Assembly: GCA_949292635.1 (NCBI GenBank)
Contig: CASEZY010000004.1
Coordinates: 1-64,000, forward strand
Length of the DNA stretch: 64,000 nt
Direction: 5' to 3'
From: an uncultured Methanomassiliicoccales archaeon
GTDB taxonomy: Archaea; Thermoplasmatota; Thermoplasmata; Methanomassiliicoccales; Methanomethylophilaceae
Part shown: piece after piece, positions 20,151 through 31,681 of the stretch
Position numbering within the stretch: the stretch's first letter is position 1
How the letters are laid out: each line of letters starts with the position of its first letter
Translations under genes and position numbers: made by a program
The notes under the pieces: model-generated
What the model was told of the DNA's origin: nothing
The model's database searches: none
The model's input: only the letters and a program-made list of their open reading frames with translations

Positions 20151-20176
20151 GTCTGATGAACCACATCTACCTTTTT

Positions 20177-20289
20177 GAAATTTTCTGAGTTTTATTTCGG
20201 CTGATTTTGAAATTTTCTGAGATTTTTTTCAGCCTATTTAGAAATTTTCTGAGTTTTATTTCGACTGATTTTGAAATTTTCTGAGTTCC
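20177..20289. repeat. 32-bp tandem repeat array (three full units plus a partial)
   Basis: The core GAAATTTTCTGAG begins at 20177, 20209, 20241 and 20273, an exact 32-bp period, or about three helical turns. Between cores the sequence varies around TTTTATTTCGGCTGATTTT. Each core contains the near-palindrome GAAATTTTC. The array fills the gap between the divergent DUF4143 ATPase gene (start 20150) and the transporter operon (start 20374), and it is very AT-rich. It is too short and its spacers too similar for a CRISPR. Binding sites for a regulator or an iteron-like element are the simplest readings. Confidence 0.7.
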
Positions 20290-27466: not shown

Positions 27467-27490
27467 AAAAAAGGGGAAAGGGGAAAGGGG
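27467..27490 (-). terminator. Pyrimidine tract between surface-protein and ABC genes
   Basis: On the coding (minus) strand the sequence after the surface-protein stop is three CCCC blocks separated by TTT, then a run of six T (27467-27472). T runs of this kind terminate archaeal transcription, so this probably ends the surface-protein mRNA. The opposite strand carries three GGGG blocks, one fewer than a standard intramolecular quadruplex needs. Confidence 0.5.
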
Positions 27491-27497
27491 TTTGAGT

Positions 27498-30400
27498 TCA
27501 CCTTCTCAGGTACACGACTATTCCGACCACCGCAACGATGCCGACCACCGCTATAGCGATGTACATCAGAATGTTGTTGTCGCTCGGAGATGCAGGCGGA
27601 TCGACATCGGCTCCGACGATGAAATCGGAGAAGTGGGTGGTGCAGAACCTGATGTTCCCGTCATCCACCACCTCGGACCTGAGGGTCTCCACCGAGCCGT
27701 CGTCGGCTAAGTACAGGACCTTGAGGTTCATTCCGTCAGGCACGGTGAAAGCCACGGTGACCCAGGTCTCGCCGAGGTCCGAGGTACTGCCGGCTCCGTC
27801 GAAGTCGATGCTGATCAGGGTCGCGTTCCGAGCGAACTCCCTGTACTCCAGCGGGACCACCTGCAACACCCTCTCATTGACGGGGTTGGAGGAGATGGTC
27901 ACGGTGACCTTGGTCGAGAGCGAGTTGGCTGTGCCGGCGATCTTGCCGATACCGGACTGGGTCAGCTCGATAGTACCTTCGCTGAGCGATATGGTGACCT
28001 TCTGGTCCTCACCGATGGCATTCAGATCGGTCTTGGGGACGGTGATCGAGTCCTCGCCCTTAATCACGGTGTTGGTGCTGTCGGTGGTATCGAAGTCCGA
28101 GGAGGTTATCTCCTTGGTCCAATGCGCCCTGACCGAGAGGTCGTTGGCGGGCATGGTGTCGACCAATCCGCTCCAGCGGACGAACTCATATCCGTCGCGG
28201 ACAGGGTTCGAGGGGAGGTTGGGCCTGACGCTGGCGCCGTATTCGACATCAAGCACAACATCATCCGTTCCGTTGTTGAGGACGATGGTGAGCTTGTAGG
28301 TGTTGACGCTCCACTGCGCCCTGACCGAGAGGTCGTTGGCGGGCATGGTCTCGGGGCCGTCCCAGCCATCGAACGTGTATCCCTCGCGGGTGGGTGCCTC
28401 TCCGATCGCGTCGGCCAATTTCGCGCCGTATGCGACATCGACCACCTTGTTCTCGGTTCCGTTGCCGTAGACGACGGTGAGCTTGTAGGTGTTGACGCTC
28501 CACACGGCGTAGAGCGTGGTGTCCGCGATGAAGTCTGCGTTGCTGCCGTCGGTGTAGGCGGTGCCTGAGCCGTCGGCTGCGGTGTTCCATCCGCTCAATG
28601 TGTAACCCTCGCGGGTGACGATGGGCGTACTCAGTATGGAACCCTGCGTGACGCTGGCGGTACTGCTGTAGTCGATGTCCGTGGCGGTGAATGTCACCGT
28701 GTAGACCGGAATCGAGACGGCGGTGATGGTCACATTCGGCTCGCTGAGAACGAAGGTCTCGCCGTTGGCATAGAACACTCCGTTCACATTCCATCCGGTC
28801 TGGCCTTCGACGGCCGGAACGGTCATCGAGGATCCGGTGACGTAGGTCCCATCGACGGTTGCTCCGGTGACGGTGGTCGCGGGGAGTTTGAAGCCGAACA
28901 TGGCACTCTCATCAATTGCGTCCTCAACCGTGACACCGTCATTAACGATGTTCAGATACTTGCCGGGGTTCATATCTGCCACGTTGACGGTCGTATCGCC
29001 AACGCGATAGTACCCGGTAAGCATCCCAACGGTGTATGTTCCCGAGGAGTCCCTCTTGACGTCGTAGATCTGCAGATCGACTTCCTCTCCAGAAGCATAA
29101 TCAAACTCACCGACGGATATGCTGAGGGCTAGGAGGAGACCTTTTCCGTTGATGATCCCACTGGCCATACCTTCATAGGAACCGGTGAAATCCGTCGCAC
29201 GGAACGTGCCTGAGTCACCACTCAAATCGATACAATCGGCCTCAAGCAGGATGTCAACGGAAGTGGCATCGAAGATCGATTCGAGCGGATCCGAACTCTG
29301 CATTGCCTCCCAAAGATCCAGATCATCAAATCCGGCGGTGATCTCTACTGACGGACTCTCGATCCAGAATGGGGAGTCTAAACCAGTTATGATCACCTTA
29401 GCACCGGGAGCGGACCTGATGGAAAGGCTGGCGTCCATGTCGGCGCGGAGGCTGTCCTCGTTGACGTTCACGTCAAGGGTCATTCCCAAGGTTTCGAATC
29501 CTGCCACGGCAGTATCACCTGCAGGCTTGACCTCAAAACCGTAGTTAGTTCTGCCGGCAAGGGACCCATCCTGGTTATAGACGTTCTCGTTATTCGCGAA
29601 GGATGCGGAAGCCAATTTACAATCGATGTGAACGTTGGAATCATTCACAAGGAAATCATAGATGTCCTTGGGTTCTACAGCACCATCACCATCGCTGGAA
29701 CCGAAGAGGTACATGGCTAGAATGACACCGATGTTCTCTGCATAATCCGTGGTGATGTCGAACTGCAGTCCAACGGCCGAAGCGTCCGATTTTTCGACAG
29801 ATATCTGCGAAGTGTTGCCGCTGGTATCGACGTATTTATAACCACTGTCCTTGCCGCCGAATTGGGCTTTATCGACAGTGATGCTCGCCTTCATCAGGGG
29901 CTTGTCGCTGATGGTGGCGGCAACATCCGACTCGATACTCAACGAGATCCCGCTGACATCAAACTTCATGCTGACGTATTTGTTGTCAGTACCTACCGCC
30001 ATATCTTTAAGAATCGAATCCCAGGTCGACTTGTCAAAATTACTGGGTTCAACTATCTCGGAAATATCGGTCGAACTGTACGAATCTAAATCGAGACTCA
30101 GATCGATCAGTGTACCGTAATCCACACTCTGCAGGACAGTTATGAGGTCATCCTTGGAGGGATCGAAAGCGGCAAGACTGCTGAGAAGTTTCTCGACGCC
30201 GGACGTCTGAGCTGTGACATATAACTTCAGTCCGGAATAGGCCTTCGAATAAGGTTCGCCATAAGCAGTACCCGGTTCGGTAACGACGGTACCGTTCTCC
30301 GTAAAACTGATTTCGTTCTTGAAGGAATAATCTCCAAGGTAGTAATACGCAGTGGTTATCGACGGGTTGTAGGTCAGCCTGCATTCATAATCGGAGTATG

Positions 30401-31493
30401 ATTCGGTATAATTGTAGGACTGGGTCATCTCCCCCACGGAAGCATTGAATTCCGCACTGCGAGAGTTGTCCTTTCCGGACACGAGGGACATGACGAAGTT
30501 GGAACATGAGAGTATCTGGCCTTCGGGCGTCAGATTACCATCGTTACTCTTCAGATTCACTTCTAAGCTTGAGATCCCGACCTCCAGATCCAGATACGGG
30601 AAGCCGTTCTCGGAAGAGAGGATGTAGTCCATCAAAATCTTGGAGATGATATCCTGGGTCTCCGGGAGGTTCAACAGATGTGCGTAGAGCGATGTGACGT
30701 TGAATTCAGCTTCGACATAGAGGTCGCGGGCGGTGTCAGAACCGTCGATGTCGATAGTCGTCACGGGAGTGGTGCCCTCTGAAATGGACGTTTGTATCAG
30801 GGAGAAGTTGCCCTTGGCATCGAGTGACAGTGATATCCGCCCGGTTGCGATCTTGTCAGCCTTATCGATATCGAATGTGGCCTCGAAGACGAACGCGACA
30901 TCTTTATCGGCGACCATTCTGCATCCGGTAAGCAGATCGTTCTGACCAAGGGCGACTGCGTCTGCAACGATATCGATGCTGCCGCCGTCGACGACTGTGA
31001 GCTTCGCATTGCCGTTGATGATCAGTGCGCCGGTGACGGTGAGCTTGTCGTCTTTACCGAAGACGAGGTCGGCACCGTTCTGGAGAACGAGATCGCCAGT
31101 TATGGTCTCGTTGCCGTTGATCTGACGCTCGGAGGTGACTTCGGTCTGACCGGAGCTTACCTGATCCAGAGGCTCAAGCATCAGCGCAATATAGGTCAGT
31201 TCATCCAACAGATAGGAGATCTGTTCGTTCGTAGTGGGATCGGTATCAGCGGAAGATGTTCCGTCTGAACCCTGGGTCCCGTAGCTCACATCCGCCGTAT
31301 CGACATACGAGACGGGTGCTGCCGGGGACAAAGCCGGTACGGCCAAAAATGCGGCCGCGACGGCTATCGCCAGAAGGCAGATGAATGCCTTCCTCTTGCT
31401 TCCCGTCGAAGCGTAGGCCCCCCCCCCCAAAGAGCGACTCTTCACGGGGCTCTTGGCGCCTTTGCCGCCGACGGTACCAGACAGTACAGTCAT
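27498..31493 (-). CDS. Large repeat-containing cell-surface protein, possibly phase-variable
   Basis: A 1331-residue adhesin-like protein. A basic N-terminus precedes a signal helix (AFICLLAIAVAAAFLAV) and a Thr/Ser/Asp-rich exported body. Around residues 934-1128 are three Listeria-Bacteroides (InlB B-type) repeats with the motifs REGYTLSGWNT, REGYTFDGWDG and RDGYEFVRWSG. A C-terminal membrane anchor (NNILMYIAIAVVGIVAVV) ends in YLRR. It probably sits on the cell surface and binds host or microbial ligands; this is inferred. The ATG at 31493 is preferred because a TATA box (ATTATATACG, about 31512-31521) lies 25 bp upstream; an ATG at 31532 is upstream of that promoter. An 11-G tract at codons 22-26 could switch the gene by slippage. 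Confidence 0.85.
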   Translation of the reverse strand: MTVLSGTVGGKGAKSPVKSRSLGGGAYASTGSKRKAFICLLAIAVAAAFLAVPALSPAAPVSYVDTADVSYGTQGSDGTSSADTDPTTNEQISYLLDELTYIALMLEPLDQVSSGQTEVTSERQINGNETITGDLVLQNGADLVFGKDDKLTVTGALIINGNAKLTVVDGGSIDIVADAVALGQNDLLTGCRMVADKDVAFVFEATFDIDKADKIATGRISLSLDAKGNFSLIQTSISEGTTPVTTIDIDGSDTARDLYVEAEFNVTSLYAHLLNLPETQDIISKILMDYILSSENGFPYLDLEVGISSLEVNLKSNDGNLTPEGQILSCSNFVMSLVSGKDNSRSAEFNASVGEMTQSYNYTESYSDYECRLTYNPSITTAYYYLGDYSFKNEISFTENGTVVTEPGTAYGEPYSKAYSGLKLYVTAQTSGVEKLLSSLAAFDPSKDDLITVLQSVDYGTLIDLSLDLDSYSSTDISEIVEPSNFDKSTWDSILKDMAVGTDNKYVSMKFDVSGISLSIESDVAATISDKPLMKASITVDKAQFGGKDSGYKYVDTSGNTSQISVEKSDASAVGLQFDITTDYAENIGVILAMYLFGSSDGDGAVEPKDIYDFLVNDSNVHIDCKLASASFANNENVYNQDGSLAGRTNYGFEVKPAGDTAVAGFETLGMTLDVNVNEDSLRADMDASLSIRSAPGAKVIITGLDSPFWIESPSVEITAGFDDLDLWEAMQSSDPLESIFDATSVDILLEADCIDLSGDSGTFRATDFTGSYEGMASGIINGKGLLLALSISVGEFDYASGEEVDLQIYDVKRDSSGTYTVGMLTGYYRVGDTTVNVADMNPGKYLNIVNDGVTVEDAIDESAMFGFKLPATTVTGATVDGTYVTGSSMTVPAVEGQTGWNVNGVFYANGETFVLSEPNVTITAVSIPVYTVTFTATDIDYSSTASVTQGSILSTPIVTREGYTLSGWNTAADGSGTAYTDGSNADFIADTTLYAVWSVNTYKLTVVYGNGTENKVVDVAYGAKLADAIGEAPTREGYTFDGWDGPETMPANDLSVRAQWSVNTYKLTIVLNNGTDDVVLDVEYGASVRPNLPSNPVRDGYEFVRWSGLVDTMPANDLSVRAHWTKEITSSDFDTTDSTNTVIKGEDSITVPKTDLNAIGEDQKVTISLSEGTIELTQSGIGKIAGTANSLSTKVTVTISSNPVNERVLQVVPLEYREFARNATLISIDFDGAGSTSDLGETWVTVAFTVPDGMNLKVLYLADDGSVETLRSEVVDDGNIRFCTTHFSDFIVGADVDPPASPSDNNILMYIAIAVVGIVAVVGIVVYLRR
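31418..31428 (-). repeat. 11-bp poly-G tract inside the surface-protein gene
   Basis: The coding strand reads TTG followed by ten G and then CC, giving eleven consecutive G that encode part of Leu-Gly-Gly-Gly-Ala. No other homopolymer this long was noticed in the window. With eleven G the gene is in frame; loss or gain of one G would shift the frame before the signal peptide. This is the layout of a contingency (phase-variation) locus. Confidence 0.8.
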
Positions 31494-31681
31494 AATTTCG
31501 GAGCAGAATGAACGTATATAATTGTTCACCAAAGAACATGATCGTTTGATAAACAGTTTTTAAACATTCATTCCGTTCATTTTGAATGCTTGCAGAATGC
31601 TGGCACATAGAACTTTTGACGTTGGACCCACCCTGCATAACGATACAAAGACAATTATCCCCGATCGCGTTCAGCCAAGTC

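Follow-up and report, generated by a model that had tools for sequence, protein, structure and literature searches.

A poly-G tract 5' of a signal peptide as a probable contingency switch in a Methanomassiliicoccales archaeon, and similar tracts across its family

A run of eleven consecutive G lies early in the coding sequence of a large surface-protein gene in the window, our term for the whole 64,000-nucleotide stretch analyzed here from an uncultured Methanomassiliicoccales archaeon (contig CASEZY010000004.1 of assembly GCA_949292635.1). We consider it very probable that this tract is a contingency switch; switching and length variation at the locus are inferred, with neither reads nor a second strain at hand. 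The original prediction that the tract makes the gene phase variable is supported by the excess of long G runs over chance, by their placement and the classes of genes that carry them, by the layout repeated in relatives, by the co-occurrence of genes in phase and out of phase, by differing tract lengths at two pairs of contig ends, and by the lack of MutS and NucS. It is also well supported that the set of poly-G switches is larger than the single gene first noted and comprises surface genes and DNA-methylation and restriction genes across the family. More broadly, we judge it likely that a host-associated methanogen family without known mismatch repair uses multi-locus poly-G phase variation, with some species holding a large family of genes for interchangeable surface proteins that share a tract-plus-leader module and are nearly all off at any time, alongside restriction and methylation genes of type I, type III, and Dam type that are also phase variable. 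That the organism is a methanogen of the Methanomethylophilaceae type is itself an inference, from an MtaA-like methylcobamide:CoM methyltransferase gene and archaeal marker genes present in this genome.

The window tract and its surface-protein gene

The tract and the features of the gene that carries it were mapped to the following positions of the window.

31418-31428, minus (coding) strand, C11 on the plus strand: G11 homopolymer, the proposed slipped-strand switch
27498-31493, minus strand: gene for the 1331-amino-acid surface protein, in phase at G11 (ATG 31491-31493, stop 27498-27500)
31515-31521, minus strand: TTATATA, an archaeal TATA-like box (sequence; role inferred)
31344-31394, minus strand: predicted signal-peptide hydrophobic core RKAFICLLAIAVAAAFL, approximately 23 nt past the tract
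28089-28703, minus strand: Listeria-Bacteroides (Flg_new) repeat region, approximately residues 931 to 1135 (profile match)
27501-27569, minus strand: C-terminal membrane segment plus RR, LMYIAIAVVGIVAVVGIVVYLRR (translation; membrane-anchor role inferred)

The count of exactly eleven G was confirmed, as was the originally predicted position of the tract, nucleotides 66 to 76 of the coding sequence and 5' of the signal peptide. The codons across it read TTG GGG GGG GGG GCC (Leu-Gly-Gly-Gly-Ala), and since GGG is the rarest glycine codon in the gene (14 of 114), the run is not accounted for by glycine demand. The frame is open at tract lengths of 8, 11, and 14, and lengths of 9, 10, 12, and 13 lead to products of 42 to 82 amino acids from ATG 31493. 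Gain of one G leaves 82 amino acids and loss of one G leaves 42, which bears out the expectation that a one-base slip would shift the frame and abolish the protein. Early-coding placement at which gain or loss of a unit switches the gene, a criterion of a contingency locus, is met at this tract.

The stretch from the tract to the signal-peptide core has no in-frame ATG, GTG, or TTG, so a translation start 3' of the tract was ruled out and an exported product must be translated through G11. The TATA-like box ends 21 nt before ATG 31493, which supports that ATG as the start and implies that transcription begins near it, with a short leader or none; the role of the box is inferred. At G10 an upstream ATG (31683) enters the frame, and it lies above the predicted promoter; a start there would bury the signal peptide.

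The 1331-residue protein contains Pfam Flg_new/List_Bact repeats (E = 6.6e-21), and its PF09479 match of 74.6 bits in three stretches, against a curated cutoff of 27, meets the criterion for a Listeria-Bacteroides repeat surface protein. A search for relatives with solved structures found none, and an adhesin role is plausible, as a guess from the architecture without binding data. Apart from one weak match, no close homologue of the first 900 residues was found in 102 family genomes or in the genome_contigs set, and there is thus no orthologue with which to compare the tract. Two further repeats were observed in the window, namely, three copies of AAAGGGG that directly follow the surface-protein stop codon (27470-27490) and an AT-rich 32-bp unit repeated 3.6 times (20173-20287).

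Excess and placement of G runs in this genome

Run lengths were sampled over 464 kb of this genome, made up of the window and 20 other stretches. G/C runs of 4, 5, 6, and 7 numbered 2762, 804, 99, and 10; runs of 8 to 10 were absent from this sample, and the one run of 11 was the window tract. Genome-wide, 10 G/C runs of at least 9 were found versus 1.1 predicted by geometric extrapolation from the shorter runs, and 5 of at least 11 were found versus 0.02 predicted. By this extrapolation, a run as long as G11 is far beyond chance, and a second criterion of a contingency locus, a repeat tract longer than chance expects, is met at the window tract. A or T runs of at least 9 numbered just two in this genome. 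A dinucleotide shuffle was dropped as the chance model, as it predicted 7 octamer matches versus 4 observed and hid the excess; because it overestimates mid-length runs, the observed run lengths were used instead.

Five other tracts of this genome (G000) lie in or near genes or ORFs.

C1:35789: G12, just 5' of the signal peptide of another large surface protein
C3:157415: run of 9, at the start of a BspA-type LRR protein
C4:107097-107107 (L027:4098-4108): G11, in a Dam-type D12 adenine methyltransferase
C19:8381-8391 (L031:4082-4092): G11, 52 nt before an ABC-transporter ATPase gene
C21:4384: run of 9, at the start of an ORF without known function

At C1:35789, a G11 tract would put an upstream ATG in frame, and with G12 a downstream ATG is available. 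The BspA-type gene is out of frame as assembled: a tract of 8 or 10 would bring an upstream ATG into frame, and one of 9 brings none. Among the tracts of this genome, one lies 5' of the signal peptide of L024, a surface protein unrelated to the window protein. The tract in the Dam-type gene, on the same contig as the window, sits a few residues before the catalytic DPPY motif. None of 80 Dam homologues from other organisms has a comparable run (the longest is 8), and in the six examined individually the sequence runs directly into FVYFDPPY, so the tract is a recent, lineage-specific insertion; the gene is a candidate phase-variable methylation gene. The tract before the ABC-transporter gene is a possible promoter switch. 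The remaining four tracts lie between genes, beside the end of a contig, or in a region resembling a transposase, and approximately half of the ten fall between genes or in ORFs that are poorly understood.

Placement was compared with that of shorter runs. Tracts lay 5' of a signal-peptide-like segment in 3 of 10 cases in this genome (30 of 863 shorter runs; P = 0.005), in 8 of 21 cases in the genus (1 of 54; P = 9e-5), and in 11 of 30 cases in the related genome G021 (1 of 55; P = 2e-5). The gene classes typical of contingency loci, surface structures and restriction-modification, are represented among the genes with these tracts, and this criterion is also met.

Tracts and mismatch repair in relatives

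Of 61 relatives, 41 had G runs of at least 10, as did 38 of 45 family members with good assemblies, and such runs recur in four single-contig genomes (G009, G020, G026, and G035). Within the same genus, tracts are found near signal peptides in G003 (L065), in G005 (L079 and L081), and in G004 (L078, just after the signal peptide). The L079 protein of the sister species G005 is 51% identical over 446 amino acids to L024 of the window genome, and both genes have an upstream tract. A second layout is found in genus g4, where 41 to 48 nt separate the end of the tract from the ATG of genes encoding signal-peptide proteins (L115, L132, L136, L139, and L142), which suggests promoter or leader control; L081 was also observed in this layout. 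Repetition of the start, tract, and signal-peptide order in sister species and other genera is supported by these loci and fits slipped-strand phase variation. We do not claim that tract abundance is unique to the family, which exceeds f23 and f38 but not f11. Two further loci were noted, a Fic-domain gene with poly-G in its 5' portion (L114 of G009) and an unusually long run of 23 G (L119, G008:C1:73715) in a family genome, which is possibly an artefact.

The largest set was found in G021, with 94 G runs of at least 10. In this genome 39 paralogous surface genes (L084-L113 and L276-L335) share a module consisting of an ATG, approximately 50 to 67 nt, G10-13, and then LNITVLFAAALFLA. Of the 36 that could be classified, 2 are in phase as assembled and 34 are out of phase, an in-phase share below the third that random phasing would give (P = 1e-4). 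Coding sequence is intact on both sides of the tract even in the out-of-phase paralogues, some of which are restored by one added base and others by one fewer, which speaks against one-directional recoding. Restriction and methylation genes of G021 are broken in the same way.

L093, type I specificity subunit HsdS: split in two frames exactly at the G run; 414 amino acids at +1
L108, type III restriction gene Res: split in two frames exactly at the G run; 794 amino acids at +1
Dam gene: broken solely at the G run; 290 amino acids at -1

The phase-variable type I system NgoAV of Neisseria gonorrhoeae has a poly-G run in hsdS that separates the two target-recognition halves of the specificity subunit. 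L093 resembles it in having poly-G between these halves; L093 belongs to a relative of the window organism, and a change in specificity is inferred.

Contig ends in two assemblies of the same genus, neither of them the window genome, overlap at a single tract with different lengths. The ends of C12 and C34 in G002 have G12 and G11, with flanks of 77 and 11 nt identical out to both ends, and those of C11 and C79 in G004 have G9 and G11, with identical flanks of 117 and 4 nt. The simplest reading is that the assembler stopped where reads disagreed in length. Because PCR or sequencing stutter, or an unseen second copy, is not excluded, these differences are supporting evidence and not proof. Other contig-end pairs were rejected as length polymorphisms: those of G021 were ruled out as paralogues, and identity stops inside the flanks both there and in the G201 pair L251/L349. 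Runs of 83 and 25 G in G201 were attributed to sequencing noise.

Campylobacter and Helicobacter are not known to have canonical MutSL repair. Neither MutS (MutS_V, PF00488) nor NucS (NucS_C, PF01939) was found above the cutoff in 41 genomes of the order, and the same searches were positive for NucS and MutS in 7 and 11 of 14 control genomes, respectively. Both known prokaryotic mismatch-repair systems thus appear to be missing from the order, and uncorrected slippage is to be expected. Archaeal replicative polymerases slip in vitro (PMC4134008).

Proposed mechanism, rival explanations, and meaning

In the mechanism proposed here, DNA polymerase would slip on the G run at replication, and without mismatch repair of the MutS or NucS type, the gained or lost G would persist. 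A change not divisible by three would shift the frame 22 codons in, before the signal peptide, and the surface protein would not be made until later slips restored the frame. A cell line would in this way keep a mix of expressers and nonexpressers of a large anchored surface protein, and other surface and restriction or methylation genes of this genome and of the family may use the same device. The slippage rate, switching at the window locus, a change in protein expression, and the selective reason (recognition of surface proteins by phage, host, or competitors) are all inferred.

The missing repair also feeds a rival account, in which G runs lengthen by mutation alone and are tolerated in dispensable surface genes. 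We regard such neutral expansion as unlikely, even with about half of the tracts of this genome lying outside clear genes: the tracts are significantly concentrated just 5' of signal peptides, runs of 8 are nearly absent and those of 9 to 12 form a group, and restriction-modification genes have been struck at different sites in different species. In addition, the 39 G021 paralogues keep their start-tract-leader layout and intact coding sequence even when out of phase, and some genera of the same repair-less order, g10 and g6 among them, have no tracts of at least 10. Placement statistics, intact frames beyond out-of-phase tracts, and gene classes favor selection over neutral expansion.

Programmed frameshifting or transcriptional slippage, by which one genotype would give a fixed mix of products, seems very improbable. 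Long runs can make a polymerase or ribosome slip, and archaea are known to have genes recoded at poly-A (PMC3711429), but a G run is an atypical slippery sequence, the window gene needs no shift to be in frame, and the out-of-phase G021 genes need shifts in both directions. We give least credence of all to an error of sequencing or assembly, whether a wrong homopolymer length or two-colour poly-G noise. Homopolymers are error-prone, and the 83-G run, at a contig end of G201, is clearly artefactual; the window tract, however, is flanked on either side by unique sequence and at its assembled length leaves the 1331-residue frame open, and many assemblies made independently, the four single-contig genomes among them, show G runs at the same position in genes.

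Phase variation by slippage at the G runs would place these genes beside the poly-G and poly-C contingency loci of Campylobacter, Helicobacter, and Neisseria, in which G runs of approximately 8 to 13 near or before the 5' end also switch the frame. The classes of genes, surface and restriction-modification, and the many loci per genome (for Campylobacter, PMC539331) are alike as well. Unlike in the bacterial loci, replication and promoters here are archaeal, the proteins have archaeal signal peptides and C-terminal anchors, and switching is only inferred. Orsi et al. (2010) described short poly-A and poly-T tracts, of up to 7, at gene 5' ends in 81 bacteria and 18 archaea, with poly-G and poly-C generally underrepresented and not 5' biased; the likeness is that a homopolymer close to the start of a gene would switch its frame, and the list of sampled groups omits this order (PMC2831843). 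A 2025 review treats multi-locus phase variation as apparently restricted to pathogens, leaves the question open, and asks for archaeal surveys (PMC11868660). Our literature search for phase variation in this order, or for the phrase "archaeal phase variation," returned nothing (subscription papers were outside its scope). The type of device is thus known from bacteria, and its scale in an archaeal family appears to be unreported in the literature searched.

Multi-locus phase variation has looked like a property of bacterial pathogens and commensals alone, and here the presence of tracts is tied to the absence of both known prokaryotic mismatch-repair systems. If reads confirm the switching, archaea would share this bet-hedging device by independent evolution, in methane producers of animal guts, and the resulting heterogeneity in surface proteins and methylation would matter for work on phage, host interaction, and methane mitigation.
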